Positions 8,048 to 64,000 are shown, counted from the first letter of the stretch. The stretch: 64,000 nt of DNA from a virus (IMGVR_UViG_3300042905_003268:39780-103779); one strand, 5' to 3'. The notes: a model not told the origin generated them from the sequence alone. A program made the numbers and translations.

Positions 8048-8075
8048 ATGGCACCAATACTATTCTATCATTAAA

Positions 8076-8639
8076 TTATATATTTAGATCAAAAACTTTC
8101 TTTACTGGTTTTAAAATTATTTCCGTACTCAAGCCTTTATCAAATTTTTGTTTTATTGATGATACTATCCAGTATTGTGTTTCTGGGAATTCTACCTTAT
8201 ATGTTTTTATTTTAATTTTTGCTAGATCTCCTACCTGTATCAATGGGTTTGGGGAGATTTTTAAAGATAAATTTTTGTAGTACATATCATAGTATGCACT
8301 TATTATATACAGACAATAATTTGCAATTTCTTCATTTTGTATCCAAACTGATTCTACATCCAGTTGGGCGTCAAAGGAGCCAAGTTCAAGGTCTTCTGAA
8401 ACTTCATACGTTTCACCTTCAATAATTGTAGAACCCTTAACTATCAGACCTCCTCCAGATATGTTATTTGAAGATCCGGCACTTAAATAAATAGTCTGAT
8501 TGCTAGCATTTAATACTGCTATTCTAGCATCTTGAGGAGTTCCGGCAACTATACTAGTGGCTATAGCGTCCTCTGGAACTTCTACAATTTCTTCTATCAC
8601 AAGAATTTTATTGTATTTTTTATTTTTAGTTTTAGCCAT
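8076..8639 (-). CDS. Tail hub-associated protein
   Basis: This 187-residue protein starts at ATG 8639 directly at the end of the 1302-residue tail gene (1-base overlap). The C-terminal half (SLKISPNPLIQVGDLAKIKIKTYKVEFPETQYWIVSSIKQKFDKGLSTEIILKPV) has the features of the terminal domain of phage tail hub proteins, where a 'GD.v.v' turn and 'y.v..i...l..G.t..i.l' strands recur. I infer a split-off partner of the preceding tail protein. Confidence 0.55.
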   Translation of the reverse strand: MAKTKNKKYNKILVIEEIVEVPEDAIATSIVAGTPQDARIAVLNASNQTIYLSAGSSNNISGGGLIVKGSTIIEGETYEVSEDLELGSFDAQLDVESVWIQNEEIANYCLYIISAYYDMYYKNLSLKISPNPLIQVGDLAKIKIKTYKVEFPETQYWIVSSIKQKFDKGLSTEIILKPVKKVFDLNI

Positions 8640-12547: not shown

Positions 12548-13014
12548 CAGATCTCCGTAAATTCAGCAGATACGTTCCAGTAATCAAAGTTCCGGTATCT
12601 CTTGATGACATCAAAACCGAAGTCAGTCCAATACACTTGACATGTCTCATCTACTGGGGCTTCTGCATTATTTCTTTTATATCTTAAAGTTAAAGTAAGT
12701 GGACTATAACAATATAATTCATAGTAAGCCTTCATTTTAGCAGCGTCAGCATTCCCGTCTGCCATCATTGTAGATACTGTAGGCATCATATCCCATGTAC
12801 ATGAAAAACCCTTTTTCTTAGAAATAATACTTTTTCTCATGGTTCCATCAGCCATTCTTTGAGAATTTTCTATTATTTCGTAGGAAACGCTAAGTGGCGA
12901 TCTTGAATGATCGGATAAAGTTAGTTGACCATTATTTGGTGTTGATGTAGAGAATTCAGAGGCGGCCTTACCATTGGCTTGAAGTCTAATAATTGATGGA
13001 ATTATAAATGTCAT
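12547..13014 (-). CDS. Distal tail/minor tail protein
   Basis: A 155-residue protein between the tape measure and the large hub gene, overlapping each by a few bases (ATG 13014 overlaps the tape measure stop). It contains NGKAASEFSTSTPNNGQLTLSDHSRSPLSVSYEIIENSQRMADGTMRK, a strand-rich stretch common in actinophage distal tail proteins, and a C-terminal DVIKRYRNFDYWNVSAEFTEI. Position and size fit a protein that caps the tail tube. The assignment is mainly by order. Confidence 0.6.
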   Translation of the reverse strand: MTFIIPSIIRLQANGKAASEFSTSTPNNGQLTLSDHSRSPLSVSYEIIENSQRMADGTMRKSIISKKKGFSCTWDMMPTVSTMMADGNADAAKMKAYYELYCYSPLTLTLRYKRNNAEAPVDETCQVYWTDFGFDVIKRYRNFDYWNVSAEFTEI

Positions 13015-16000: not shown

Positions 16001-19000
16001 CGGTGTCTGGAGGGATAACTAATCCATTGATAAGTCCAGCAATCATATCTTTGCCTAATAACTTATATACTTCTGAGGGAGAATTAGTTTTTGTTTCATC
16101 TCTCATCCATATTTCAAGCCACTTTATAGCCTGTCTAGTGGCAGCCTCTGTTGCCTGAACTCCATCAGTTAAACCTTTTTCTACTCCAAGCATCAGGTCA
16201 GATCCAATATTTTCTCCAGTAAGTTTTACTCCACCCGCATTAAATGTTGGACCAGTTTGTGCAGTACTTTGACCAGCAGCGGTTCTTGCCACCTCTTCTA
16301 ATCTATCTGCAGAAAGACCTAAATCAGATATTGTTGCGCCCTCAGACAATTGTTTGTTTATTTTTCTTAGTCTATCCTGCGCCTTAAGAATAATATCATT
16401 CCACTCAACCCATCTAGCAATTTCATCATCTATTCCCTTGCCATCAAAGTCCTCGCCGTACTGATCATATAGTTTCTTTGCTTTTCTATATGCTTCATCA
16501 GTTTCATATCCAAGATCATACAAGGCTCCGGCTATAACATCTATTTTTTCTTTAGGATTAAGTTCTTTATCCAGAAGTGCCCCGAAAACATCTGGCATTA
16601 CTTCTTTTAGATCTTCTCCTGCTACGCCCATCTTCTTCAATGAATCTTCTATAAACTTATAATCATCGGTTTGAGCAAACAGTTGATTATTGTTGTCTAT
16701 CCATGAATCATATAATTCATTTAATATTTGATCTATATTTTCTGCGGGTATATTTAACTTCTCTAGTTCTTGTCTATAAGACTTTACTCTATCACTATCG
16801 AAGAAGGCTGTCCATGGCCCCATTTGTGAAGTTCTTACTCTTAGTTCCGCACCCTCTGTCCAGTTAACAACTCCACTAGTTAGAACCTCTACCCTATTAG
16901 CAGTCCATTTCTGTTGTGCTGCTGAAGGACCAGTAGATCCCCCACCACCGCCGCCACCAGAAGAAGCATCTTGAAGTTTTTGAAGTCTTTCTTTTTCTTT
17001 TTCAGCGGCAGCAATTTTCTTATCTTCTCTTTCCTGCCTTCTTCTTTCAATCTCTTCTGCTTGATATTTTTCTTTTTCTGCATTTAATTGTGCCTGTAAA
17101 AGAGCCGCTTCCGCAAAATTGCCTTCTGCTGTTGCTCTGGCTATTTGATTTTCTAAGTCTTGTCTGCGTAGTGCAAAATCCACTTGCTTTTCTTGTAATT
17201 CAAGTAGTTTTTGACGCTCCTCACGTTCCTTTTGAATACCTTCAATTATCTTATCTTGTGCTTCAATAAGTTTGTCGTAGTAGTCTGATCCAGATCCTCC
17301 AGATCCTCCTCCAGCGTCACCTGAGTAATCTATGGCTCCTAATGCTGATTGAATTGCATCTTCTGGATTCGTCGCAGCCTGGGCGGTAGGAGTTGTTCCA
17401 ACTGGACTTCCTTGTATGAAAGAGGTCCAAACATTCGCTCTAAAGTTTGCAGGATTAGTTCTTGCCATATCAGCAAGTGCTGCCCAGTCTGTATTAACAT
17501 CAGCAATAACCATTGATACAATTCTTAATGCATCTTGAAGTTGAACTCCGCCTTCCATCATCATGGAGAATGCTCTACCAGCATCTGGAGACATTTCATT
17601 AATTTGTGTTTGTATTTCACCAATTAGTTGCTTATTACTATCTAAAGCATTTGCACTAGCGCCTAGTGAAGTTAAGAATTGATCAAATGTCTGCCCCCCA
17701 GAAGCCATGGCAGCAAATATTCCTTGAGCCATCATAGATGCTTCATTGCCAACAGCCCCCATAACGTCTTCTATTTCATATAAGTCTGGAGATATGGCAA
17801 CGACTTCTTTTAATGCTGGCAAGATATCAAGTATGAATTGATTAAATTCTGGTCCATATTGCTGACCATCTACAGAAAGCCCTTTCATAGCAGCATCTAC
17901 TGCTGGGTTACTTTCTGCTTCAGGATTAGTTATTCGTTCTTGAATTAATCCTAGCAGTTCTTCTAGAGTCATTCCAAATTGTTCTGCTATGCTATTGAGA
18001 TATACTGCAGTATCTGCTAAATTAGCCTGTTCACTTTCCCCAGTTTGAGGGTTAACTGCTAGTACTTCTTTCCCGCCTCTAGATTCTTCATACAACTGCT
18101 GTGCTTTTCTTAATCTATCTGCTTCTTTTTCAGTATAATCAGCACCCCTAATTACTCTATCAGCAATATCTTGTAATTGTGCTAGATACTTTGCTCCTAT
18201 TTCTTCTGGCTTTGTGCCAAGTTTTCCTATTCGATCTAACTCAGCATTTACAATTGGAGCAAATATTTCTTTACCAGTAGCAGATAAATAACCACCTATC
18301 ATGGTCTTAATGCTCTTTATATCCATGCCACCTAGAAGTGCTTCTGAAACCATCTTACTAAACATTGGATCATTAATAAATTGCTCTGCAGATTCCATAG
18401 ATGCAATTTGATCTCTTCTTCCAGCCTCAACACTTCCTGGCTCCGCGTTTGCTACAGCATTAGCAAACTCTCTTAACTTATTAGTAGCCTCTTGCGTTCT
18501 TAGATTAAATGCATTTAATGGTAAATCTTCTAATTGTTTTAACGGCTCTACATTAAAGAATTGTTTTTCTAGTTCTGTGAGTCCAGTCTTAGACGCTTCT
18601 ATTCCAGCCTTTAGTTTTGCAAGTTCTGCTGCTGCTTCTTCAGACCTTCTGCCAAAGAATGAAATTCCTTCTACAGCGACACCTATAGCAGCACCTATAG
18701 CAAGTCCCTTGGGTCCAAACATTGCGCCCATGCCAGTCATATTTGCTATATTTATTCCAGCATTCATTGCTTGCCCAGCCCCAGTATCTTCTCCAGGACG
18801 AGGTAGGAACATCGCAGCCATACTTGCAAGGCTTATTGCTCCTCCCAACTTGCCTCCCGCAAGCATTCCTCCTTTGTTAGAAGATATTGCTGCAGTTTGC
18901 CCTTCTCTTGCTACAGTTCCTTTATTAGTAGAATCACTATTTCTTTGGGTAGAAACAATATTTTCTGTAACTTCCAGAGATTGTCTTTCTCTTAATGCTG

Positions 19001-56191: not shown

Positions 56192-56206
56192 GCACGATCT
56201 TGCCTA

Positions 56207-56258
56207 ATACTGCATTATAGTGCAGTATTTTTTAGTTTTTACTGCATTGTAGTGCAGT
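56207..56258 (+). terminator. Tandem terminators after the thyX operon
   Basis: Two near-identical 18-base palindromes (ACTGCA-TTATAG-TGCAGT at 56209-56226 and ACTGCA-TTGTAG-TGCAGT at 56241-56258). The first is followed by six T. They are placed in direct repeat just after the HNH stop and isolate this operon from the early region. Confidence 0.8.
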
Positions 56259-56510
56259 AAAACTTCTCATAAATGGAAGATATCTTATCATTTTTGATAA
56301 CTATACCATTTGCCGTTATAAAACTGTTATATTTTAATTTGATGAAAATGTTAATGGCTTGCTAATTTGGATGATACACTTTCTTGGTAGCGCAAAATCG
56401 GACAAATAGTGCGCCCATACATATTATGTCCGTGTCAAGTTATTTCGTGGAATATTTACCAAATCTTTACAATTGTATGCCCGTTTTGCCTGAATATTTT
56501 TCGTACGTTT

Positions 56511-56526
56511 TCGAACAATTGTTCGG
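56511..56526. promoter_or_regulatory. LexA (SOS) box
   Basis: TCGAAC-AATT-GTTCGG contains the perfect 14-base palindrome CGAAC-N4-GTTCG (56512-56525), the LexA operator of actinobacteria and Gram-positive bacteria (consensus TCGAACN4GTTCGA). It is not inside a gene and lies about 60 bases upstream of the first RecA-NDp-type promoter. Confidence 0.65.
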
Positions 56527-56540
56527 TGATCTAGATCACA
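56525..56540. promoter_or_regulatory. CRP/GlxR-type palindrome abutting the LexA box
   Basis: GGTGA-TCTAGA-TCACA matches the CRP/GlxR consensus TGTGANNTANNTCACA at all but the first base. GTGATC-TAGATCAC (56526-56539) is a perfect 14-base palindrome directly contiguous with the LexA palindrome. No actinobacterial CRP site has been tested here; the match is by sequence only. Confidence 0.5.
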
Positions 56541-56578: not shown

Positions 56579-56601
56579 ATGTCAGACCCCCATGTCAGAC
56601 T
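56579..56601 (+). promoter_or_regulatory. RecA-NDp-type promoter P1
   Basis: ATGTCAGAC-N8-CAGACT. The -10 has C instead of T at its first base. A second TGTCAGAC follows at 56593. The downstream ATG at 56608 lies near the expected transcript start, 24 bases and in frame before the RBS-bearing ATG 56632. Confidence 0.5.
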
Positions 56602-56631
56602 AGATACATGAGCAAGAGAGAGGAGGTGACC

Positions 56632-56775
56632 ATGAGAATCACCAAGGCTACCGTCCGTAGCATCGTCAAGAATGCGCGATGCAACGACTGTGGAGAAAAG
56701 CACTACGCTGCAATGGCTATCGTCAATGACGATATCCTGTGCGCTAACTGTCATCAGGCTAAGGCTTTCGCCTGA
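56632..56775 (+). CDS. Small zinc-ribbon protein (47 aa)
   Basis: Start ATG 56632 behind an excellent GAGGAGGTGACC. The product MRITKATVRSIVKNARCNDCGEKHYAAMAIVNDDILCANCHQAKAFA has two CxxC pairs (RCNDCGE, LCANCHQ), a zinc ribbon. An earlier in-frame ATG (56608) is possible as leaderless start. First gene of the early array; likely a nucleic acid or protein binding factor. Confidence 0.65.
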   Translation: MRITKATVRSIVKNARCNDCGEKHYAAMAIVNDDILCANCHQAKAFA

Positions 56776-56798
56776 CTGTCAGACCCTCATGGTAGGGT
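56776..56798 (+). promoter_or_regulatory. RecA-NDp-type promoter P2
   Basis: CTGTCAGAC-N8-TAGGGT fits TTGTCRGTG-N8-TAnnnT. It is followed by an 80-base leader that contains CCTAGG palindromes and a CCCCATGAGGG stretch complementary to the promoter's own CCCTCATGG. Next gene: ATG 56882. Confidence 0.75.
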
Positions 56799-56881
56799 GT
56801 ACCTATAACTGAATATTCCTAGGCAAATAAGCCCCATGAGGGATGAGCCCTAGGCCACACCGTAAGAAAGAAAGGTAAGAA

Positions 56882-57142
56882 ATGATTAGCACTACTCCCA
56901 TCAGGACTCCTAAGAGTCCCGCACCCGCTTGCCGTTGCAGCGAGTGCATCCTTGATCCCTTCAACTCGCATGGGATCTACATGATCGGAGCCTACAAGGT
57001 TCCGTCAGTCCTTTCGCTCCGTGGTGGGCGAGTCACTAAGCCTCAGGTTGCATGGGAGTGCGTTAGCACCATCAGCCAGGGTCGAATGACTGAGGTGTTC
57101 CCCTTCGCTCAGTCTGATGAGGATCGGAGGTGGCTTATCTAA
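56882..57142 (+). CDS. Hypothetical early protein (86 aa)
   Basis: An 86-residue protein behind AAGAAAGAAAGGTAAGA. It contains ACRCSECILDPFNS (CxCxxC), GIYMIGAYKVPSVLSLRGGRVTKPQVAWECVSTISQG. The Cys cluster is compatible with a small zinc site. The stop shares its last base with the next ATG (TAATG). Similar small proteins are common in actinophage early regions. Function unknown. Confidence 0.65.
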   Translation: MISTTPIRTPKSPAPACRCSECILDPFNSHGIYMIGAYKVPSVLSLRGGRVTKPQVAWECVSTISQGRMTEVFPFAQSDEDRRWLI

Positions 57143-57312
57143 TGAACGCATCACCATACCGTGGCATTGCGCCACGACAGAGTACAGCGCAACGTGCGCG
57201 GCGTGCATTGGTTGCTCGCATTGGTCACGATGCTGCAGCACAACAGGATGCAGATCGCATCGACTACTACCGTGCGCTCATCGCGCAGGCCAAGGCCCAA
57301 AAAAGCCTTTAG
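57142..57312 (+). CDS. Small basic helical protein (56 aa)
   Basis: A 56-residue protein (MNASPYRGIAPRQSTAQRARRALVARIGHDAAAQQDADRIDYYRALIAQAKAQ) that is Arg/Ala-rich and helical, probably nucleic acid binding. Its ATG is coupled to the preceding stop, and its 3' end runs into the first of two tandem terminators. Confidence 0.6.
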   Translation: MNASPYRGIAPRQSTAQRARRALVARIGHDAAAQQDADRIDYYRALIAQAKAQKSL

Positions 57313-57363
57313 ATATAAGGGTTTTTCAGACACCTAAAAAAGCCTTATAAAATAAGGGTTTTT
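57299..57363 (+). terminator. Two tandem terminators
   Basis: Two similar ~28-base units (AAAAAAGCCTTTA-GAT-ATAAGGGTTTTT, and AAAAAAGCCTTAT-AAA-ATAAGGGTTTTT) stand in direct repeat. Each forms a hairpin with a T-run of five. They end the 56882-57312 operon. Confidence 0.75.
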
Positions 57364-57366
57364 GGA

Positions 57367-57415
57367 GCGCGGCTAAGATCTTGTCCGCGCCAGCGGACAT
57401 GTCAAGTTACGACAC
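57367..57415. repeat. Intergenic module A (AAGATCTT palindrome + GTCAAGTTACGAC)
   Basis: A 24-base near-palindrome opens with GCGCGG, has AAGATCTT at its centre and ends CCGCGC (57367-57390). Ten bases later GTCAAGTTACGACAC follows (57401-57415). The same pair recurs at 58758, 59952, 61465, 61710 and 63466, always between an operon end and a promoter. A transcription terminator is the simplest reading of the palindrome; the TTACGAC element is unexplained. Confidence 0.75.
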
Positions 57416-57503
57416 ATTAAAAACTCCTTGGAAAATTTCCTGGAAAAATTGTTTTTAAATTTTTTTGAAAATGTCCAATTTGTATGCATTCTGGATTTGA
57501 CCA

Positions 57504-57526
57504 TTGTCAGTCCCCTAGTGTAGAGT
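57504..57526 (+). promoter_or_regulatory. RecA-NDp-type promoter P3 (leaderless)
   Basis: TTGTCAGTC-N8-TAGAGT. The ATG of the next gene (57534) is seven bases after the -10 box, so the transcript should start at or beside the start codon. Confidence 0.8.
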
Positions 57527-57533
57527 CGGAGAC

Positions 57534-57650
57534 ATGAGAAAGACACCATGCACAGGGATTCATAAGTCCACTATCGCTTCCGGCCTCTCCTTCTGGTGCG
57601 CTGGTTGTGGAGAGTGGAACGTCGTCAACGGAAAGGCGGTCAGGGCATGA
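57534..57650 (+). CDS. Small CxxC protein (38 aa)
   Basis: A 38-residue protein (MRKTPCTGIHKSTIASGLSFWCAGCGEWNVVNGKAVRA) with a CAGC pair plus a separate Cys6, so possibly a short zinc knuckle. The mRNA looks leaderless. The stop overlaps the next ATG (GCATGA). Confidence 0.6.
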   Translation: MRKTPCTGIHKSTIASGLSFWCAGCGEWNVVNGKAVRA

Positions 57651-57928
57651 TCGATTCAGTAGATCGTATCGTCACCACTCCAATGCGAGAGTGTCCTCCA
57701 TTTGTAGAGGGCATCCTTGGAGAGAATGACAGGGGCTTGCTCCATACTAGGTGGTTCATCATCGAACCGCTAGAGGATGACTGGTTCCTTGTGACCGACA
57801 CGCAGGGCAATGCCATGCAATCGCGTGGCTCTGCTATGGTAAAGTGGCTCAAGCCTGAAGACAAGAATGACCCTGTAATCCAAGCAGAACTGATCACAGG
57901 ACTGGCTTCTATGGGATTGGAATTCTAG
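57647..57928 (+). CDS. Hypothetical early protein (93 aa)
   Basis: A 93-residue protein starting at ATG 57647 (coupled by a four-base overlap to the preceding stop) rather than at the ORF's 57596. Content: MIDSVDRIVTTPMRECPPFVEGILG..., LLHTRWFIIEPLEDDWFLVTDTQGNAMQSRGSAMVKWLK, strand-rich. No family. The stop (TAG) overlaps the next gene's GTG. Confidence 0.6.
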   Translation: MIDSVDRIVTTPMRECPPFVEGILGENDRGLLHTRWFIIEPLEDDWFLVTDTQGNAMQSRGSAMVKWLKPEDKNDPVIQAELITGLASMGLEF

Positions 57929-58020
57929 TGTTCCGCAAATGCGCTAACTGTGGCAGGCTTCTACTGTCAGACACCCGTGGTAACTTTGGATCATGCACAT
58001 GCGAGAGGGAGGAATCATGA
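57928..58020 (+). CDS. Small zinc-ribbon protein (30 aa)
   Basis: GTG start overlapping the stop TAG of the gene before. Product MFRKCANCGRLLLSDTRGNFGSCTCEREES has CxxC and CxC pairs that would hold one zinc. Promoter P4 lies within it, so residues LLLSDTRGN are encoded by promoter sequence. Short but coupled at both ends (TGA overlaps the next ATG). Confidence 0.5.
   Translation: MFRKCANCGRLLLSDTRGNFGSCTCEREES
57964..57986 (+). promoter_or_regulatory. RecA-NDp-type promoter P4 (inside gene 57928-58020)
   Basis: CTGTCAGAC-N8-TAACTT inside the coding region. ATG 57993 follows by six bases and is in frame with the RBS-bearing ATG 58017 eight codons later, as at P1. Confidence 0.7.
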
Positions 58021-58103
58021 GGACATTCGCACAGCATGTCTTGTCATTCGTCATCATTAGCGGTATCCTTACTGCTATGGCTATCGTAGGAGGAATGGAA
58101 TGA
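58017..58103 (+). CDS. Micro membrane protein (28 aa)
   Basis: MRTFAQHVLSFVIISGILTAMAIVGGME is a single hydrophobic segment (about 8-25). ATG 58017 overlaps the stop of the previous gene and follows GGGAGGAATC. The stop overlaps the next ATG. Likely an inner membrane peptide, role unknown. Confidence 0.5.
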   Translation: MRTFAQHVLSFVIISGILTAMAIVGGME

Positions 58104-58375
58104 TTACCCGCGCAGAAACAGTCGGGAAGCACTATCTAGTCAATGCTCGCGCATCTATCTCGCATCCAATGGCCGATGAGGTTTCTATCGCCATGGGTTC
58201 GGGAGCCTATGCACGCTTCCCGCATTCTGTCGAACTTGCATTCTTCAAGAATGGGGATTGGGTAACTGAGCCTCTGCCAGAGTTGGCAGACTACTACTCG
58301 CATGAGGTCTACCCGTATGTTTCTCTGATCGAATTTGCAATGTTCATGGAGAACTTTGGGACGGGGGGAGAGTGA
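58100..58375 (+). CDS. Hypothetical early protein (91 aa)
   Basis: A 91-residue protein (MITRAETVGKHYLVNARASISHPMADEVSIAMGSGAYARFPHSVELAFFKNGDWVTEPLPELADYYSHEVYPYVSLIEFAMFMENFGTGGE). GSGAYARFPHSVELAFFKNGDWV is a motif I associate with small actinophage proteins; function unknown. ATG overlaps the stop before it. Confidence 0.65.
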   Translation: MITRAETVGKHYLVNARASISHPMADEVSIAMGSGAYARFPHSVELAFFKNGDWVTEPLPELADYYSHEVYPYVSLIEFAMFMENFGTGGE

Positions 58376-58376
58376 C

Positions 58377-58565
58377 ATGTTTCGTCTATCCATCATAGAT
58401 AGCGAAAGTGGTTACACTTTCGAATGGAATGGTTCGCACACCGTAGAGATTCGTTCTGCTAGTGGTAAGGTATTCGATGTGTTTTCGTTTGGCATGACTG
58501 AAAAGGGAACGCGACCTACATTCGTAGAGTTTGCTGCGGCTGCTGAAAGGTGGTTGTCGGAATGA
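58377..58565 (+). CDS. Small early protein (62 aa)
   Basis: A 62-residue protein (MFRLSIIDSESGYTFEWNGSHTVEIRSASGKVFDVFSFGMTEKGTRPTFVEFAAAAERWLSE): beta strands then a helix. ATG 58377 is chosen over the ORF's 58335, which lies inside the previous gene. The stop overlaps the next ATG. Confidence 0.6.
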   Translation: MFRLSIIDSESGYTFEWNGSHTVEIRSASGKVFDVFSFGMTEKGTRPTFVEFAAAAERWLSE

Positions 58566-58756
58566 AAATAGCAGAACGCCGTCCATTCGATATCAATATG
58601 ACAATGCAATGGAATGACATACAGGAATTGCTCACACGATGCAAGCGCATGTGGGCATGTGCTGAGAATCCTGGCGACTTCGAAACTTTGGAAGAACTGG
58701 AGAAGGCTCTACACATTCTTGCGGAGAATATTCGAACTAGACTTGACAAATCTTAG
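58562..58756 (+). CDS. Small helical early protein (64 aa)
   Basis: A 64-residue protein (MKIAERRPFDINMTMQWNDIQELLTRCKRMWACAENPGDFETLEELEKALHILAENIRTRLDKS), two helices, acidic in its second half. ATG overlaps the stop of its neighbour. It ends just before intergenic module B. Confidence 0.6.
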   Translation: MKIAERRPFDINMTMQWNDIQELLTRCKRMWACAENPGDFETLEELEKALHILAENIRTRLDKS

Positions 58757-58757
58757 A

Positions 58758-58832
58758 GCGCGGACAAGATCTTAGCCGCGCCAGGAGCGGTGTCAAGTTA
58801 CGACGATAAGAAATTTTCCCTGGAATTTCTTG
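58758..58832. repeat. Intergenic module B
   Basis: GCGCGG...AAGATCTT...CCGCGC palindrome (58758-58781), GTGTCAAGTTACGACGA (58790-58806) and an A/T-rich hairpin AAGAAATTTTC-...-GGAATTTCTT (58808-58832). Together they form a ~75-base unit that precedes promoter P5. Confidence 0.75.
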
Positions 58833-58835
58833 TCA

Positions 58836-58858
58836 TTGTCGGAGGGGTATGCTAGGAT
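58836..58858 (+). promoter_or_regulatory. RecA-NDp-type promoter P5 (leaderless)
   Basis: TTGTCGGAG-N8-TAGGAT, followed by six bases and ATG 58865. R in TTGTCR is G here. Confidence 0.8.
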
Positions 58859-58864
58859 TTTTCC

Positions 58865-59011
58865 ATGATCAAGAATCGCAAGCGCACCCGTGATGAAATT
58901 CAGCGTACCTTGGAATTGCGTCGGAGTAATATCGCGCAACCCCATCGGAATAAGGCTAAGTATTCTCGTAAGCCTAAGCATCGTGATCGTTTCGTTATCG
59001 AAAATGACTGA
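58865..59011 (+). CDS. Small basic protein (48 aa)
   Basis: MIKNRKRTRDEIQRTLELRRSNIAQPHRNKAKYSRKPKHRDRFVIEND is strongly basic and likely binds nucleic acid. It is preceded by a leaderless RecA-NDp-type promoter and followed by another (P6). A single-gene transcription unit. Confidence 0.6.
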   Translation: MIKNRKRTRDEIQRTLELRRSNIAQPHRNKAKYSRKPKHRDRFVIEND

Positions 59012-59024
59012 TTCCCTCTTCCCA

Positions 59025-59047
59025 ATGTCGGACCCTAGTGCTAGGAT
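59025..59047 (+). promoter_or_regulatory. RecA-NDp-type promoter P6 (leaderless)
   Basis: ATGTCGGAC-N8-TAGGAT, six bases, ATG 59054. Confidence 0.8.
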
Positions 59048-59053
59048 CATTTC

Positions 59054-59611
59054 ATGATTACAGTTACCGCCCCTGAGGGCACAGTCGCATTTGCTACCTA
59101 CGCCGCTCGCTTTGAGAGCCTTATCATGACCGCCACCCTCGCGCAGATGGAGCAAGCAGCCGTCTGGTATCGTGACGCGGAGGAAGTTGCGGAGGAGGTT
59201 GCTCGCAACCTTGACACTACCCTAGAGGTAGGCGCATCCATCGTCGCAGCATTCTCGCCGCGTGAGCGTTGGTCCACTAACGTCGCTAAGGCTATCGCAT
59301 TCTCGCTCGGTCAGACCCCTAAGGGATTGGGCAATAATCTTCGCATGGCGGAGGCTTCTATCCTCATGGGATTCGATGCGCTCAAGGGTGCCAAGACTAA
59401 TGCATTCGCTCGCGCTATTGCAGGCGACGCTAACGCTGTCGTCATCGACGTTTGGATGATGCGAGCCGCTGGCATGGATACCGACTCTCCTAATAAGTCT
59501 CAGTACGCGCTACTTTCGGAGGCTGTCGTGGCTGTCGCGCAGCAATTCGGAATCACCCCGCGCACCGCGCAGGCTCTTATCTGGATTATCGTGCGAGGGG
59601 GTGCAGCATGA
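59054..59611 (+). CDS. DUF7178-like actinophage protein with HhH-like glycosylase features
   Basis: A 185-residue protein with QMEQAAVWYRDAEEVAEEVA (25-50), AAFSPRERWSTNVAKAI (about 65-80), GLGNNLRMAEASILMGFDALKGAKTNAFARAIAGDANAVVIDVWMMRAAGMDTDSPNKSQY (about 91-150) and GITPRTAQALIWIIVRGGAA at the end. It corresponds to a widespread actinophage protein family I know as DUF7178. The order (a G-x-K-T-x-A turn, then VIDVWMMRAAG) recalls the helix-hairpin-helix GPD glycosylase fold, in which an Asp in this position is catalytic. That link is an inference. Leaderless transcript. Confidence 0.7.
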   Translation: MITVTAPEGTVAFATYAARFESLIMTATLAQMEQAAVWYRDAEEVAEEVARNLDTTLEVGASIVAAFSPRERWSTNVAKAIAFSLGQTPKGLGNNLRMAEASILMGFDALKGAKTNAFARAIAGDANAVVIDVWMMRAAGMDTDSPNKSQYALLSEAVVAVAQQFGITPRTAQALIWIIVRGGAA

Positions 59612-59766
59612 CATACTTTGCAATGGATGGAAACTATGGAAGCGCACACGGCCTAGTTGTCATTGACACTAGCGGGTGGACTGATAAAGATTGGGATAGG
59701 GTAGAGAGTGCAACCGATGATGATAGGTTCATCGTCGCGGTCGTTATTGCGGAGGAATACTCATGA
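59608..59766 (+). CDS. Small early protein (52 aa)
   Basis: MTYFAMDGNYGSAHGLVVIDTSGWTDKDWDRVESATDDDRFIVAVVIAEEYS: a common actinophage small ORF, two strands and an acidic helix. Its ATG overlaps the stop of the gene before and its TGA overlaps the next ATG. Confidence 0.6.
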   Translation: MTYFAMDGNYGSAHGLVVIDTSGWTDKDWDRVESATDDDRFIVAVVIAEEYS

Positions 59767-59822
59767 ACGATATCACGCTAGAGAACTTTCGGGAGATGCT
59801 GCGCGATTTTGTGGGGGTGTGA
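59763..59822 (+). CDS. Very small ORF (19 aa)
   Basis: MNDITLENFREMLRDFVGV lies between two coupled genes with four-base and one-base overlaps. It could be a real leader-type peptide that keeps ribosomes moving to the membrane protein at 59822. Confidence 0.4.
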   Translation: MNDITLENFREMLRDFVGV

Positions 59823-59926
59823 TGACTGACGCTATCGCATGGCTCTCAGTATTGGGTGCGGCTGTAGTATTTCTAGCACCGTTTGCCGTAGTGTATTTTA
59901 TCGTCACCGCTTTTTGGAAAAGGTAG
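59822..59926 (+). CDS. Small membrane protein (34 aa)
   Basis: MTDAIAWLSVLGAAVVFLAPFAVVYFIVTAFWKR has one hydrophobic segment (5-30) and a basic end. Start ATG overlaps the preceding TGA. Function unknown; it could be a membrane-located early protein. Confidence 0.6.
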   Translation: MTDAIAWLSVLGAAVVFLAPFAVVYFIVTAFWKR

Positions 59927-59932
59927 CCGACA

Positions 59933-60000
59933 GGGTTGCGTGTGCAACCCTGCGCGGCCAAGATCTTGTCCGCGCCCTGCGCGGTGTCAAGTTACGACAC
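59933..60000. repeat. Intergenic module C
   Basis: A hairpin GGGTTGC-GTGT-GCAACCC (59933-59950) stands before the GCGCGG...AAGATCTT...CCGCGC palindrome (59952-59975) and GTGTCAAGTTACGACAC (59984-60000). The latter has itself TGTC...GACA ends. Confidence 0.75.
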
Positions 60001-60073
60001 ACCGTATTTTTCCCCAGAATTTGTGATCTATACCACATAGAATATGACCGATAATCGGATTTCGATTGGGTGA

Positions 60074-60096
60074 ATGTCAGACCCCCATGATAGCCT
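60074..60096 (+). promoter_or_regulatory. RecA-NDp-type promoter P7
   Basis: ATGTCAGAC-N8-TAGCCT, then a short leader with AAGAAAGG to ATG 60122. Confidence 0.8.
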
Positions 60097-60121
60097 TAGG
60101 GCATAGAAAGAAAGGCTAGTA

Positions 60122-60310
60122 ATGAACAACACTCTCCATTCCCACCTCGTTTGCTGCTTTTGCGACAACGAGATTGACCTCGATGCCAAGTGGTGCGGCC
60201 TTTGCCGTGAATACAAGGGCATCATGACCGTGGAAGCCTTTGAGGACTACCTCAAGGTTGCCTATGATTGCAATTGCTTGTCAGACCTAGATGATAGGAT
60301 CTCAGCATGA
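60122..60310 (+). CDS. Small zinc-ribbon protein (62 aa)
   Basis: A 62-residue protein with LVCCFCDNEIDLDAKWCGLCREYKGIM: C11/C12/C14 and C25/C28 type zinc ribbon. Start ATG 60122 behind AAGAAAGG. The last residues (SDLDDRISA) are encoded by promoter P8. The stop overlaps the next ATG. Confidence 0.65.
   Translation: MNNTLHSHLVCCFCDNEIDLDAKWCGLCREYKGIMTVEAFEDYLKVAYDCNCLSDLDDRISA
60278..60300 (+). promoter_or_regulatory. RecA-NDp-type promoter P8 (leaderless, inside gene end)
   Basis: TTGTCAGAC-N8-TAGGAT within the 3' end of gene 60122-60310, followed by six bases and ATG 60307. Confidence 0.8.
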
Positions 60311-60411
60311 ACCTAGAAGAACTATACGAGAATTTCCTCCGTTTGGAGGCCACCCTTGACCTTGACCCCAACCCTTGGGTGTCAGACCCTGATGATAAGG
60401 TGAAGCCATGA
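60307..60411 (+). CDS. Small acidic protein (34 aa)
   Basis: MNLEELYENFLRLEATLDLDPNPWVSDPDDKVKP. Start ATG overlaps the previous stop and lies six bases after the P8 -10 box. Its own C-terminus (SDPDDKVK) is written by promoter P9. Probably a helical protein; function unknown. Confidence 0.6.
   Translation: MNLEELYENFLRLEATLDLDPNPWVSDPDDKVKP
60379..60401 (+). promoter_or_regulatory. RecA-NDp-type promoter P9 (leaderless, inside gene end)
   Basis: GTGTCAGAC-N8-TAAGGT, six bases, ATG 60408. Confidence 0.75.
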
Positions 60412-60539
60412 CAACATACAAGGTGTTCGTAGATGGAGAGTTCTTTTCCACGGTCGCCACCCGCGAGGGTGCTGAGACTATCCGAGACTTTTGGGCATCA
60501 CCCCGTCAGACCGTTGAGATTGTGGAGGTGGGAGCATGA
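60408..60539 (+). CDS. Small early protein (43 aa)
   Basis: MTTYKVFVDGEFFSTVATREGAETIRDFWASPRQTVEIVEVGA: a beta-beta-alpha-like protein. The stretch YKVF.DGEF resembles the gene at 60679 (YKVYYGGQY), so they may be paralogues. Four-base overlap with the next gene. Confidence 0.6.
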   Translation: MTTYKVFVDGEFFSTVATREGAETIRDFWASPRQTVEIVEVGA

Positions 60540-60679
60540 CCACAGTAGAGTTTGAGAAGGCATGGCTAGATAACTACTACATGCTTGGCGACCATGCATT
60601 CGACTATGCGCGGTGCATGTATCTGGACGACGGCACTCTGATTGTCGATGGGGTGCGCTATGAGGAGGTGCCTTTCTAA
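60536..60679 (+). CDS. Small early protein (47 aa)
   Basis: MTTVEFEKAWLDNYYMLGDHAFDYARCMYLDDGTLIVDGVRYEEVPF: helical start, strand end. ATG overlaps the preceding stop and its TAA overlaps the next ATG (TAATG). Unknown function. Confidence 0.6.
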   Translation: MTTVEFEKAWLDNYYMLGDHAFDYARCMYLDDGTLIVDGVRYEEVPF

Positions 60680-60834
60680 TGCAGAATATCTACAAGGTCT
60701 ACTACGGTGGACAGTACATGTGTTCATTCTTTGAGCGTGATGCTGCGCTCAACTGGATTGTCGATCTCGCTGCTGAAGGCGAGGGGGATTTCGGAGACTA
60801 CGAGATTCTGGATGGGAGTGATTTTCCTGCTTAG
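60679..60834 (+). CDS. Small early protein (51 aa), paralogue-like of 60408
   Basis: MQNIYKVYYGGQYMCSFFERDAALNWIVDLAAEGEGDFGDYEILDGSDFPA. The opening beta pair (YKVYYGGQYM) and following helix (FERDAALNWIVDLA) resemble the 43-residue protein at 60408. It ends the group started at P9. Confidence 0.6.
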   Translation: MQNIYKVYYGGQYMCSFFERDAALNWIVDLAAEGEGDFGDYEILDGSDFPA

Positions 60835-60855
60835 GTCCCGACGCAATGTTGGCAA

Positions 60856-60871
60856 GCACCGCCTGCGGTGC
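60856..60871 (+). terminator. Short hairpin before P10
   Basis: GCACCGC-CT-GCGGTGC after the stop of 60679-60834, followed by TACTTCGGG. The stem is seven bases with a very small loop. It is a likely weak terminator that replaces the AAGATCTT palindrome at this operon end. Confidence 0.45.
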
Positions 60872-60886
60872 TACTTCGGGTGCTGC

Positions 60887-60909
60887 TTGTCAGTCCCCTC
60901 CGATAAGAT
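60887..60909 (+). promoter_or_regulatory. RecA-NDp-type promoter P10
   Basis: TTGTCAGTC-N8-TAAGAT. It drives the WhiB-like gene at 60963. An ATG at 60908 overlaps the -10 box itself, so a small ORF from that ATG cannot be made from this promoter. Confidence 0.75.
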
Positions 60910-60976
60910 GGAACGTAGAATCATCAAGCGCAAGGAAGCGCGTGAATGGAAGAAGGATCAGAATGTGGCAGGATAG
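60908..60976 (+). CDS. Doubtful small ORF (22 aa)
   Basis: MERRIIKRKEARE... runs from an ATG that overlaps the P10 -10 box to TAG 60976, across the start of the WhiB-like gene. It is basic. It is listed because of its charge and its overlap with the next gene. If P10 is the only promoter here it would not be translated. Confidence 0.25.
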   Translation: MERRIIKRKEAREWKKDQNVAG

Positions 60977-61172
60977 TGCAGCGTGCAAGGATGCGGACAG
61001 CAACCTGTTTCTCTCAGGTGTTGCCTCGCGCATCGAAAAGGCTAAGTCGATTTGTGCAACGTGCAGCGTTGTGCAGGATTGCCTCGCATTTGCAATTCGC
61101 AACGAGGATTTTGAGCCGCATGTCTATGGTGGCATGACGGGTGTAGAGCGTAAGAGATTGGCGGGTGTGTGA
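60963..61172 (+). CDS. WhiB-like iron-sulfur transcription factor
   Basis: A 69-residue protein with C8, C31, C34 and C40 in the spacing C-x22-C-x2-C-x5-C that binds a [4Fe-4S] cluster in the Wbl family. After it comes VYGGMTGVERK (54-64), the family's G[V/I]WGG turn with Y instead of W, followed by a basic end (KRLAGV). WhiB-like proteins bind the principal sigma factor and redirect transcription; phage copies are known to mimic host Wbl proteins. AAGAAGGATCAGA precedes the ATG. The family is restricted to actinobacteria and their phages. Confidence 0.9.
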   Translation: MWQDSAACKDADSNLFLSGVASRIEKAKSICATCSVVQDCLAFAIRNEDFEPHVYGGMTGVERKRLAGV

Positions 61173-61306
61173 TGGTAAAGGTAGAGATGCCTCGCGCAGA
61201 TTGGGATGCAGTCCTAACGTGTCTGCGGGAACTGATGGATCAGGGATGGATCGTGAAGTCCCTCTACAATGACATTATCGACCAAGTAGACGAACAGGAG
61301 TACTGA
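61172..61306 (+). CDS. Small early protein (44 aa)
   Basis: MVKVEMPRADWDAVLTCLRELMDQGWIVKSLYNDIIDQVDEQEY: a helix followed by an acidic helix, of a type (PR.DWD.V...L.....G) common in actinophage early regions. Its ATG overlaps the whiB-like stop (TGATG). Confidence 0.65.
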   Translation: MVKVEMPRADWDAVLTCLRELMDQGWIVKSLYNDIIDQVDEQEY

Positions 61307-61307
61307 T

Positions 61308-61436
61308 ATGAGTTACCTTGACTACCTTCCCGCCGATGGCAATTTCTCAGAGGATGAACTGTGGGAGGCCATCGCAGAAGATTTGGGAGTCGATCCCTCA
61401 GAGATCATGGATGGGGATTTGGTGGATTTTATCTAG
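61308..61436 (+). CDS. Small acidic protein (42 aa)
   Basis: MSYLDYLPADGNFSEDELWEAIAEDLGVDPSEIMDGDLVDFI is very acidic and helical. It could mimic DNA or bind a host protein, but no evidence shows this. It ends just before module D. Confidence 0.6.
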   Translation: MSYLDYLPADGNFSEDELWEAIAEDLGVDPSEIMDGDLVDFI

Positions 61437-61445
61437 TTGTCGCCA

Positions 61446-61514
61446 GGGTTGCGAGTGCAACCCTGCGCGGCCAAGATCTTGTCCGCGTAAAAAAAATAAA
61501 AATAGTTTACGACG
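61446..61514. repeat. Intergenic module D
   Basis: GGGTTGC-GAGT-GCAACCC hairpin (61446-61463), GCGCGG...AAGATCTT...CCGCGT palindrome (61465-61488), an A-rich stretch and GTTTACGACGA (about 61505-61515). Here GTCAAGTTACGAC is degenerate (AGTTTACGAC). Confidence 0.75.
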
Positions 61515-61518
61515 AGGC

Positions 61519-61547
61519 TTGACAGCCCCTGGAATTTCTGATAGGTT
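61519..61547 (+). promoter_or_regulatory. Sigma70-type promoter with consensus -35 (TTGACA)
   Basis: TTGACA, 17 bases, TAGGTT. It precedes ATG 61572 with TAGGAGGAAAAA as ribosome binding site. Unlike the RecA-NDp-type promoters it needs no accessory factor by sequence. Confidence 0.65.
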
Positions 61548-61571
61548 TGGCTCATCAACCTAGGAGGAAAA

Positions 61572-61706
61572 ATGGCTCGCTGTGAAGACTACCCGTGCTG
61601 CGGTCACACCGACGGCCTTGGCTGCAACTACAACCCTGGCGATTACTACTGGCGTAAGGTAATGTCTCCTGACTATGACCCCTACTATGATGAAGGGGAG
61701 TACTGA
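61572..61706 (+). CDS. Small cysteine-rich protein (44 aa)
   Basis: MARCEDYPCCGHTDGLGCNYNPGDYYWRKVMSPDYDPYYDEGEY. C4, C9, C10, H12 and C18 in CEDYPCCGHTDGLGC form a compact metal-binding motif widely seen in actinophage early proteins. Strong AGGAGG. Function unknown. Confidence 0.7.
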   Translation: MARCEDYPCCGHTDGLGCNYNPGDYYWRKVMSPDYDPYYDEGEY

Positions 61707-61707
61707 G

Positions 61708-61756
61708 GGGCGGGTAAGTTCTTAGCCGCGCAATAAAATCTAGTCAATTACGACGA
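61708..61756. repeat. Intergenic module E (degenerate)
   Basis: GGCGGGTAAGTTCTTAGCC-GCGC (about 61709-61731) keeps the outline of the AAGATCTT palindrome with AAGTTCTT at centre. GTCAATTACGACGA follows (61743-61756), with T instead of G in the sixth position as in module F. Confidence 0.65.
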
Positions 61757-61797
61757 TTAAGAAATTTCTCCAGAATTCCCAGAATTTTTCCTTGTGG

Positions 61798-61820
61798 CTG
61801 TCATACCCCTAGGCTATAGT
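61798..61820 (+). promoter_or_regulatory. RecA-NDp-type promoter P11
   Basis: CTGTCATAC-N8-TATAGT. It leads to ATG 61846 with AAGAGGGAAC as ribosome binding site. Confidence 0.75.
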
Positions 61821-61845
61821 AGTACTACAACAGAAAAGAGGGAAC

Positions 61846-62046
61846 ATGATTGCTACTATCCGTACTCCCTCCCGCTCATCCACGGGCGCGGGGGTATTTG
61901 AAGCAATCAAGCATGGCGTAGAGTATGATGTATATGATGATACCCATTTCGATATCACGATTCATAATCAGACCCGCGCAAACTTGATTGCGAAAGCGGC
62001 AAATGGTAAGATTGTTGCCGTAGTTGATGCACTTCCCGTTTACTAG
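61846..62046 (+). CDS. Small early protein (66 aa)
   Basis: MIATIRTPSRSSTGAGVFEAIKHGVEYDVYDDTHFDITIHNQTRANLIAKAANGKIVAVVDALPVY: a small strand domain (IKHGVEYDVYDDTHFDITIHNQ) and a short end. Unknown function, common in small-gene arrays of actinophages. Confidence 0.6.
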   Translation: MIATIRTPSRSSTGAGVFEAIKHGVEYDVYDDTHFDITIHNQTRANLIAKAANGKIVAVVDALPVY

Positions 62047-62061
62047 TAGAAGGAGAAAATA

Positions 62062-62223
62062 ATGGCAAGCAAGAAGAGCAAGACCCCTAAGTTCACCTAC
62101 CTTGAGACCTGGAATACCCGTTATGGTGTCCAGACTCGTATTGTCACTCGTCAGAATGGCAAGTTCATTGACTCCACCCCCGCGTTGGAGACATTGAAGC
62201 ACGGCATCCCTGCTGGTCGATAG
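62062..62223 (+). CDS. Small basic early protein (53 aa)
   Basis: MASKKSKTPKFTYLETWNTRYGVQTRIVTRQNGKFIDSTPALETLKHGIPAGR behind AAGGAG. Basic N-terminus then two strands (YLETWNTRYGVQTRIVTRQNGKFI), possibly RNA-binding. It ends 40 bases before tRNA-Leu. Confidence 0.65.
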   Translation: MASKKSKTPKFTYLETWNTRYGVQTRIVTRQNGKFIDSTPALETLKHGIPAGR

Positions 62224-62263
62224 TAGGAAGATCCTGGGTATGATCGCTAAAACTGCCCATCTA

Positions 62264-62344
62264 GCCCGAGTGGTGGAATTGGCAGACACGCACGACTCAA
62301 AATCGTGTTCCATTGGAGTGTGGGTTCAAGTCCCACCTTGGGCA
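62264..62344 (+). tRNA. tRNA-Leu (anticodon CAA)
   Basis: Acceptor stem GCCCGAG/CTTGGGC with discriminator A; D-loop GTGGTGGAATTGGCAGAC; anticodon stem CACGA/TCGTG with loop CTCAAAA giving anticodon CAA; a long variable arm with TCCA/TGGA; T-arm GTGGG-TTCAAGT-CCCAC. The 12-base variable arm marks a class II tRNA. No CCA is encoded. It reads UUG codons. Confidence 0.92.
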
Positions 62345-62347
62345 CTA

Positions 62348-62436
62348 GGTGGGGGTATGTGACCCGCTATCACACCTTGTTTGGCGAATGGAAGGTGGGA
62401 TTCCTTCCTAAGATAGCATCGACTCACTCCCCCACC
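62348..62436 (+). ncRNA. Candidate structured RNA after tRNA-Leu
   Basis: A nested imperfect stem of ~89 bases: GGTGGGGG (62348-62355)/CCCCCACC (62429-62436), GTGA (62359-62362)/TCAC (62424-62427), GCTATC (62366-62371)/GATAGC (62412-62417) and a terminal hairpin GGAAGG/CCTTCC (62390-62395/62403-62408). Starts four bases after the tRNA and is likely co-transcribed. No coding frame fills it. It could be a small RNA, a processing signal or a terminator. Confidence 0.55.
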
Positions 62437-62446
62437 GACTAAAGTC

Positions 62447-62475
62447 TTGACGGCGGTCAGGGCTTATGCTACGAT
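62447..62475 (+). promoter_or_regulatory. Sigma70-type promoter (TTGACG)
   Basis: TTGACG, 17 bases, TACGAT. Thirty bases later is ATG 62505. It lies directly after the structured RNA. Confidence 0.65.
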
Positions 62476-62504
62476 TCTACTACCTACTACAGAAAGAGAC
62501 CGAT

Positions 62505-62894
62505 ATGGGAGACCGCGCTAACTTTGGAATCCGTCAGAATGACGGCAACATCATCTTCATCTACGGACATTGGGCAGGCGAGGGTATGCTTGCTAAGTTT
62601 GCTAATGCTCTTGACCATGTTCAGAATGTTGGTCGTATTGACGACCAGGCTTATGCAAATCGCATCATCATCTCGCAGTTGGTTGGCGAGTCTTGGTCTG
62701 GCGATCTTGGCTGGGGTGTTACTGTGAACTACCTCGCAGACAACGAGCATAAGGTTCCTGTGTATGACTTTGCACTCCGCGAGGTAACTCTCTATGACTA
62801 TGATTGGAAGTCGGGAGTTCTGACTGATATCATTGTCACGTTCTCGCTGAACGAGTTCATCAACAAGTACGCCAAGACCTTGATGGAGGTCTGA
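62505..62894 (+). CDS. Conserved actinophage-like protein (129 aa)
   Basis: ATG 62505 behind AGAAAGAGACC; an ORF start at 62466 precedes the promoter. The protein begins MGDRANFGIRQNDGNIIFIYGHWAGEGMLAKFANALDHV and contains RIIISQLVGESWSGDLGWGVTVNYLADNEHKVPVYDFALREVTLYDYDWKSG. This pattern is known from many actinophage proteins of unknown role. It is followed one base later by the next ATG. Confidence 0.7.
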   Translation: MGDRANFGIRQNDGNIIFIYGHWAGEGMLAKFANALDHVQNVGRIDDQAYANRIIISQLVGESWSGDLGWGVTVNYLADNEHKVPVYDFALREVTLYDYDWKSGVLTDIIVTFSLNEFINKYAKTLMEV

Positions 62895-62895
62895 A

Positions 62896-63318
62896 ATGAT
62901 TGATCCTAGTATGACTGACATTCATCCATTCCCGCCCACGATGCAGGAGTTGGAGCAGAGGTACCGCGATCTTGAGAAGAAACTTGCCGATATGGAGTGT
63001 GACCGCGATTTCTGGCGGGGCAAGGCTCATGAGAAGCAGTCTATGATTGACAACCTTGAGGAATACATCAAGGATCAGTTTGACTACATCGATGAGAATG
63101 TATCTCAGAGCATTGTCGAAATCTTTGGTCTTAATATCACCAAGGACTACGATGTGACAGTTACCGTCACATTCTCTGGTACTGTTAGTGTTCCTCTGAA
63201 CTACGACATGGATAACCTTGAGAATGATCTGAATGCCAGTCTTGAGGCAACATACTACAGCGATATAGAGTCTGATTTCTCAGAGGATCGTATGGATATC
63301 GACTGGACAGAGAGTTAG
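62896..63318 (+). CDS. Coiled-coil early protein (140 aa)
   Basis: A 140-residue protein with coiled-coil at 14-65 (MQELEQRYRDLEKKLADMECDRDFWRGKAHEKQSMIDNLEEYIK) and a C-terminal strand domain (YDVTVTVTFSGTVSVPLNYDMDNLENDLNASLEATYYS). It is reminiscent of small phage proteins that bind other early factors. Function unknown. Confidence 0.65.
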   Translation: MIDPSMTDIHPFPPTMQELEQRYRDLEKKLADMECDRDFWRGKAHEKQSMIDNLEEYIKDQFDYIDENVSQSIVEIFGLNITKDYDVTVTVTFSGTVSVPLNYDMDNLENDLNASLEATYYSDIESDFSEDRMDIDWTES

Positions 63319-63390
63319 GCAGCGGTGGTATCCTAACTACGCCTCCGCCCTGCAGACCTGAGCATGTCTTGCATAATAAACTGCTCACAC

Positions 63391-63463
63391 GCCCCCATCA
63401 TCTAGTGGCCTAGGATACTGCCCTTTCAAGGCAGCGGCGCGGGTTCGAATCCCGTTGGGGGTA
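63391..63463 (+). tRNA. tRNA-Glu (anticodon TTC)
   Basis: Acceptor GCCCCCA/TGGGGGT with discriminator A (first pair G-U, as in actinobacterial tRNA-Glu); anticodon arm CTGCC-CTTTCAA-GGCAG giving TTC; T-arm GCGGG-TTCGAAT-CCCGT. No CCA encoded. It reads GAA (and GAG), the frequent Glu codon in AT-rich late genes. Confidence 0.93.
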
Positions 63464-63465
63464 CT

Positions 63466-63550
63466 CCGCGTGCAAGATCTTGGCCGCGCCAGCGGCATAA
63501 GTCAATTACGACGGAAGGATATTTTCCCCAGATTTTTTAGAAATATCCTT
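63466..63550. repeat. Intergenic module F
   Basis: CCGCGTGCAAGATCTTGGCC-GCGC palindrome-like (63466-63489), GTCAATTACGACGG (63501-63514) and a long A/T hairpin AAGGATATTT-...-AAATATCCTT (63515-63550). The tRNA-Glu gene ends three bases upstream. Promoter P12 follows. Confidence 0.75.
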
Positions 63551-63555
63551 GCCCA

Positions 63556-63578
63556 ATGTCAGTCCCAGGGTGTATAGT
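63556..63578 (+). promoter_or_regulatory. RecA-NDp-type promoter P12
   Basis: ATGTCAGTC-N8-TATAGT, ahead of AAGGAGATACAT and ATG 63613. Confidence 0.8.
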
Positions 63579-63612: not shown

Positions 63613-64000
63613 ATGGCACACGCAGTAGAGATTGGCGCTAACGGAGAGCAGGCTTTTGCTTCCTTCCGCGAACCCGCTTGGCATGGTCTTGGCACCGTGT
63701 TCTTTGAGGAGAAGTCCACCCAGGAGATGCTGGATGCGGCCTACCTGTCCAACTGGAACGTTCGCCTTGAGGCCGTTCCTTACCCTTCCGACTACAATGT
63801 GATCACGCCTTCCTACATGGTACTGCGTGACAACCCCTTTGACCAGGGTACTGACGTTCTCGCTACCGTTGGTGAGCGTTACCACGTTCTTCAGAACGAG
63901 GATCTTTTCGACTTTGGCGATGCGCTGCTTGACGGTGGTCGCTGGGAGACTGCTGGCTCTATTCGTCAGGGTCGCGTTGTGTTCGGTTCGCTTGCGCTTG
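63613..64000 (+). CDS. DUF932 phage/plasmid-like protein (C-terminus cut by window edge)
   Basis: ATG 63613 behind AAGGAGATACAT. The visible 129 residues begin MAHAVEIGANGEQAFASFREPAWHGLGTVFFEEKSTQEMLDAAYLSNWNVRLEAVPY and contain PSYMVLRDNPFDQGTDVLATVGERYHVLQNEDLFDFGDALLDGGRWETAGSIRQG. This is the opening of DUF932-type (TIGR03299, phage/plasmid-like) proteins, common in actinophages and plasmids, of unknown biochemical role. GC-rich codons and strong RBS suggest high early expression. The rest lies beyond the window. Confidence 0.88.
   Translation, partial: MAHAVEIGANGEQAFASFREPAWHGLGTVFFEEKSTQEMLDAAYLSNWNVRLEAVPYPSDYNVITPSYMVLRDNPFDQGTDVLATVGERYHVLQNEDLFDFGDALLDGGRWETAGSIRQGRVVFGSLAL

Follow-up and report, generated by a model that had tools for sequence, protein, structure and literature searches.

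We analyzed a 64,000-nucleotide window (positions 39,780-103,779 of a 103,779-bp IMG/VR virus record) whose right end carries an array of twelve candidate promoters with the geometry of the RecA-NDp promoters of mycobacteria, which are linked to the activator PafBC. From 56 kb to the window end the GC content is 46-51%, compared with ~37% elsewhere, and the sequence is occupied by short rightward genes, including those for a WhiB-type regulator, a DUF7178 protein and a DUF932-like protein. This gene layout suggests that the region is transcribed early.

The sites have the form NTGTC[A/G]…-N8-TAnnnT and lie on one strand between 56,579 and 63,578 (Table 1). An earlier note on this DNA had listed them with an exact 8-base spacing, with bases 7-9 mostly GAC or GTC and with a single deviating -10 box, and our re-examination bears out this description: all twelve are present. 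TGTCR is found in every site and TGTCRG in 11, the spacer from the 9-mer to the -10 box is always eight nucleotides long (12/12), and the -10 box reads TAnnnT in 11 sites, the exception being the CAGACT of site 1. GAC or GTC occupies bases 7-9 in 10 of the 12, with GAG at 58836 and TAC at 61798, and the -10 box is extended (TGn) in eight. An ATG follows the -10 box at 6 nt in seven sites and at 7 nt in one (57504), so that eight of the 12 are placed as expected for transcription starting at the A of the start codon; this offset matches that of leaderless actinobacterial genes. At 60074, 61798 and 63556 the ATG is found at 25-34 nt, beyond purine-rich, Shine-Dalgarno-like leaders.

The earlier note had also proposed comparing the motif density with shuffled sequence and searching the rest of the genome and related phages. 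Between 56,500 and 64,000, TGTCR-N11-TAnnnT occurs 11 times, far above the mean of 0.19 and the maximum of 3 in 2,000 dinucleotide shuffles, none of which reached 11, and TGTCRG-N10-TAnnnT occurs 10 times compared with 0.05 in the shuffles. Other spacings give 0-3 matches in the last 9 kb. Over the whole record, TGTCRG-N10-TAnnnT has 11 forward and 0 reverse matches, and the same pattern read backwards has 0 and 1. Ten of the 11 are in the array region; the eleventh, the one further site in the record, is at contig position 3,328, within the GC-rich contig start, which continues from the window end. The search of related phages likewise returned arrays with the same spacing, which are described below.

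Table 1. Features of the array region. Positions count from the first nucleotide of the window; ATG distances are counted beyond the -10 box.
Feature	Position	Strand	Sequence and remarks
Site 1	56579..56601	+	A-TGTCAGAC-N8-CAGACT; TG before the deviating -10; ATG at 6 nt
Site 2	56776..56798	+	C-TGTCAGAC-N8-TAGGGT; nearby start not clear
Site 3	57504..57526	+	T-TGTCAGTC-N8-TAGAGT; ATG at 7 nt; TTGACC -35-like hexamer at 18 bp
Site 4	57964..57986	+	C-TGTCAGAC-N8-TAACTT; ATG at 6 nt
Site 5	58836..58858	+	T-TGTCGGAG-N8-TAGGAT; leaderless ATG of the 48-aa gene at 6 nt
Site 6	59025..59047	+	A-TGTCGGAC-N8-TAGGAT; leaderless ATG of the DUF7178 gene at 6 nt
Site 7	60074..60096	+	A-TGTCAGAC-N8-TAGCCT; AGAAAGAAAGG leader, then ATG at 25 nt
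Site 8	60278..60300	+	T-TGTCAGAC-N8-TAGGAT; ATG at 6 nt
Site 9	60379..60401	+	G-TGTCAGAC-N8-TAAGGT; ATG at 6 nt
Site 10	60887..60909	+	T-TGTCAGTC-N8-TAAGAT; upstream of the WhiB gene; start at 6-7 nt not clear
Site 11	61798..61820	+	C-TGTCATAC-N8-TATAGT; GAGG leader, then ATG at 25 nt
Site 12	63556..63578	+	A-TGTCAGTC-N8-TATAGT; precedes the DUF932-like gene
Ordinary sigma-A-type promoter	61516..61544	+	TTGACA-N17-TAGGTT; inside the array, without -26 element; copy in L097
LexA (SOS) box	56512..56525	.	CGAACAATTGTTCG; sole CGAACN4GTTCG in the 103.8-kb record
Crp-like palindrome	56525..56540	.	GGTGATCTAGATCACA; one mismatch to TGTGAN6TCACA; 55 bp before the TGTC of site 1 (56579)
Crp-like box	60022..60037	.	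TGTGATCTATACCACA; 53 bp before the TGTC of site 7 (60074)
LexA boxes near -26 promoters	L084, L113, L130, L131, L153, L154, L163, L184 and the window		
48-aa basic protein	58865..59011	+	in 48 of the related early loci whose upstream sequence is long enough
DUF7178 protein	59054..59611	+	homologs annotated N-glycosylase in some mycobacteriophage records
WhiB-type regulator	60846..61172	+	start of the open reading frame uncertain
DUF932/TIGR03299-like gene, N-terminal part	63613..63999	+	cut by the contig end
Palindromic repeat (71-nt family)	57367, 58758, 59952, 61465, 61708, 63466		GCGCGG..AAGATCTT..CCGCGC, then TTACGAC
Two near-identical 20-bp palindromes	56206-56259		TACTGCATTATAGTGCAGTA and TACTGCATTGTAGTGCAGTA; left array edge; TACTGCATTATAGTGCAGTA is a terminator-like stem, then a T-run

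Arrays in related viruses

An exact-pattern scan of IMG/VR gave at least 120 related loci (L083-L202). Among the 120 matches listed, at least 93 loci carry three or more same-strand TGTCRG-N10-TAnnnT sites, with as many as 28 sites within 9 kb in the densest array and with 643 sites on the major versus 48 on the minor strand. When the selected sites are removed, a spacing of 11 nt after TGTCR gives 710 matches versus 93 and 65 at 10 and 12 nt. We collected 680 distinct -26 promoters from these relatives. Their logo reads as an A-rich stretch, TGTC, R, G, A or T and C or G twice, followed by the TG of an extended -10 and an A at +1; the ATG distance peaks at 6 nt with a second peak at ~25-34 nt. 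The form TGTCAGACC shares arrays with the literal RecA-NDp form TGTCGGTGG, and AGACC and RGTGG forms occur next to each other, G013 being a striking case. No cultured phage matched a consensus 32-mer in a blastn search.

Orthologous promoters retain the element across phages with protein identities of 46-99%. The DUF932-like gene has retained its -26 promoter in 37 of 42 relatives and the DUF7178 gene (site 6) in 10 of 14. Some sites are part of longer repeats, as would be seen if the array had arisen by chance or by repeat expansion and had no promoter function. However, the element and the ATG offset stay constant against flanks that vary from site to site, and together with the conservation across phages and the low counts in shuffled sequence this makes such an origin extremely improbable.

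Promoters that lack the element are informative in another way. A perfect TTGACA -35 box is present in all four element-free DUF7178 orthologs and in four of the five element-free DUF932-like orthologs, one of which (L150) retains TGTCGGTGG with an imperfect -10; many promoters of the 48-aa gene without the element also have a perfect TTGACA. This exchange is a tendency and not a rule, only some of the upstream regions having been checked as true promoters. It suggests that the element behaves like an activating substitute for the -35 box, that is, as an activator site and not an operator.

Alternatively, the TGTCAGAC units could be operators bound by a repressor of the phage or the host, situated in the spacer of ordinary sigma-A promoters. 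GTCAGAC does form a short dyad, ~15% of the related -26 promoters have a -35 box matching TTGACA at five or more of its six positions, and TTGACA or TTTGCAT is frequent upstream in DUF932-like promoters. Nevertheless, an operator would have to explain why the element keeps one orientation and one distance to the -10 box, why most sites have no -35 box while the element-free orthologs have a perfect one, and why the AGTGG and GTC forms are not dyads; we therefore judge this explanation to be improbable. On orientation, spacing and the -35 exchange, both the operator and the chance explanations were dropped.

The element in bacteria and its candidate reader

The mycobacterial consensus is tTGTCRgtg-8 nt-TannnT (PMC5656591). 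The helix-turn-helix of PafB reads the -26 element, PafC contacts domain 4 of sigma-A, and single-stranded DNA (ssDNA) activates the complex (PMC11804915). We searched the 300 nt upstream of recA in 28 loci from small (1.2-1.5 Mb) Actinomycetes genomes, many of which, to judge by their size and GC content, appear to be freshwater Nanopelagicales. TGTCRG-N10-TAnnnT is present in 18 of the 28 loci, compared with none at five control spacings, and in 15 of the 18 a LexA box (GAACN4GTTC) lies at most 24 nt beyond the -10 box. The recA element carries AGTGG in nine loci, AGCCC in three and AGTGC in two, and its natural variants include TGTCAGTGG, TGTCAGTGC and TGTCAGCCC; thus, the bases that differ in the phages also vary at bacterial recA.

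In other actinobacteria, exact TGTCAGACCC promoters are located 6-8 nt before SbcD and RadA-like genes, ~30 nt before WGR genes and no more than 131 nt upstream of DUF222-HNH and phosphoesterase genes. WYL proteins with the tandem pair are encoded in all 12 of the recA-set genomes tested, and the WYL pair of L359, a candidate host, matches the solved PafB and PafC and is located upstream of tatC. One small Actinomycetes genome (G223; L387, positions 7271-9807) has six -26-type sites in 2.5 kb, two of which form an overlapping divergent pair; a leaderless gene of this cluster encodes a cysteine-rich small protein.

Taken together, the geometry, the orientation, the leaderless starts, the -35 exchange, the bacterial use of the element at recA, sbcD, radA-like and DUF222-HNH genes and the occurrence of PafBC in the recA set point to a PafBC-class promoter. 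On these sequence comparisons, the twelve sites are very probably RecA-NDp-class promoters. Several observations weigh against this assignment. Bases 7-9 are unlike the mycobacterial consensus, and over 395 Actinomycetes genomes the strict form TGTCAGACCN4TGNTANNNT occurs at about chance level, which makes the ACC of TGTCAGACC mainly a phage dialect. Some of the promoters with a good -35 box could work without an activator. Finally, arrays were not found in eight cultured actinophages that have related genes and whose host genera bear PafBC.

Regarding the reader of the sites, the earlier note had named either PafBC or a phage protein using the same element. The promoter class, together with its use at bacterial recA and repair genes, has held up, and the phage protein has become the less likely of the two: the WYL domain (PF13280) was found neither in the record G000 nor in 12 further phage records, of which some are fragments and two are array-free cultured Streptomyces phages. 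Host PafBC is the simplest candidate and the likely reader.

A phage-encoded activator, or a phage protein rewiring sigma-A such as WhiB, might instead have converged on the host motif. That would fit the number of sites per phage (up to 28), the preference of the phages for the ACC form over GTG, the position of the WhiB gene within the array and the roughly half of the phage proteins that have no family match. We nonetheless consider it unlikely: besides the missing WYL protein, neither a sigma factor nor a Crp-type regulator was seen among the scanned proteins, and bacterial recA is itself driven by this element, in variants that overlap with those of the phages. Nor are WhiB-family proteins known to read the -26 element.

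In the PafBC mechanism that we favour, a -26 element composed of TGTCRG, A or T and mostly C or G would replace or supplement the -35 box at a spacing of 8 nt from a downstream -10 box that is often extended, and the sites would be read by host RNA polymerase with sigma-A and the host PafB-PafC heterodimer. The ssDNA produced by infection, DNA degradation or replication would switch PafBC on, resulting in strong phage gene expression. This suggests that the phages borrow a damage-sensing activator of the host, which would couple their expression to DNA damage. PafBC binding, the ssDNA trigger, the early timing and the identity of the host are the parts of this mechanism that we infer.

Accompanying boxes and genome context

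Two points refine the earlier description: the array mostly departs from the mycobacterial GTG at bases 7-9, and it occurs in combination with LexA and Crp-like boxes. The LexA box of the window lies 68 bp upstream of the first site without overlapping a promoter, and it abuts a Crp-like box at 56,512-56,540, ahead of the first promoter. In 1.13 Mb of related loci, CGAACN4GTTCG occurs nine times versus 1.0 in shuffles, and eight of the nine are 83-276 bp from a -26 promoter. Both Crp-like boxes of the window are imperfect. TGTGAN6TCACA occurs 264 times in related early loci versus 1.3 in mononucleotide shuffles (~200-fold), with wrong-spacer controls near background. The box starts peak at 44, 54 and 64 bp before TGTC (51, 27 and 14 of the 680 promoters), a 10-bp period that places the computed box centres near -64.5, -74.5 and -84.5. 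At sigma-A-type promoters of related loci, the distance is ~10 bp shorter.

The candidate hosts have one Crp-family protein each and only two such boxes across 13 genomes, suggesting that the host is another actinobacterium or that the boxes are read by something else. We tentatively entertain, as possible but less than probable, that a large group of actinophages controls its early genes from composite promoters, in which a helically phased Crp-family site, the PafBC -26 element and, heading some arrays, a LexA box would gate expression by metabolic state and ssDNA through host regulators only.

Copies of the GCGCGG..CCGCGC repeat precede five -26 promoters and one sigma-A promoter. A role as a regulator site was considered and dropped; some copies fold as stable hairpins, and the repeats are probably operon-end terminators.

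The record also encodes DnaE, a RecA-family protein, a RuvC-like protein, DnaB, DnaG, ThyX and several tRNAs. Its portal shares 58-59% identity with the portals of Streptomyces Stanwilliamsviridae such as Muntaha and Faust, and as much as 100% with IMG/VR contigs. The C-terminus of the DUF932-like protein is encoded at the other contig end (L001, positions 3-122); the contig ends therefore belong together, meaning that the record either is a circular permutation or was cut at a terminal repeat. A DUF932-like homolog occurs twice in the Samisti12 record. Among the array-bearing phages, no early gene is shared more widely than that for the 48-aa basic protein (48 loci); the protein has weak matches in mycobacteriophages Sheen and Kimona. 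The phage itself (L001, positions 4576-16177) also encodes a pyrimidine-dimer glycosylase, three 2OG-Fe(II) oxygenases, a SpoU methylase, a Dak2-domain protein and a glutathione-peroxidase-like protein. The WhiB-type gene is evidence for an actinobacterial host, and the virus is presumably a freshwater virus of actinobacteria.

Significance and comparison with known systems

We found no report of phage use of PafBC in the literature searched, which was thin on subscription papers. If our reading is correct, phages use PafBC, an ssDNA-sensing and RecA/LexA-independent activator, as an early switch, and the activation of many short phage operons without a phage sigma factor would be explained. 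Mutants in pafBC would be predicted to resist or delay such phages, and several hundred natural PafBC-type promoters would become available for defining the base tolerance of the -26 element.

The record resembles the Streptomyces Stanwilliamsviridae (Muntaha, Faust, Samisti12) in its portal, DUF932-like gene, Lsr2, tRNAs and short-gene-end layout, whereas those phages are without -26 arrays. The Start Associated Sequences of cluster K mycobacteriophages are reportedly tied to translation starts. Like them (PMC3203893), the element described here is a short repeat just before many small genes; unlike them, it is a promoter with a -10 box. GIL01-type phages also place phage genes under a host DNA-damage regulator, LexA (PMC4551915, PMC6182141), but there the LexA repressor keeps lysogeny, whereas here an activator-type element precedes many genes of a seemingly lytic phage. 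The closest likeness is to the mycobacterial RecA-NDp/PafBC system (PMC5656591, PMC6789036, PMC11804915), with which the array shares the TGTCR core, the 8-nt spacing, TAnnnT, a dispensable -35 box and a place upstream of recA and other repair genes. Unlike the mycobacterial promoters, those described here belong to a phage, form dense arrays before leaderless small genes, carry mostly GAC or GTC at bases 7-9, followed by C, and are accompanied in related phages by Crp-like boxes.

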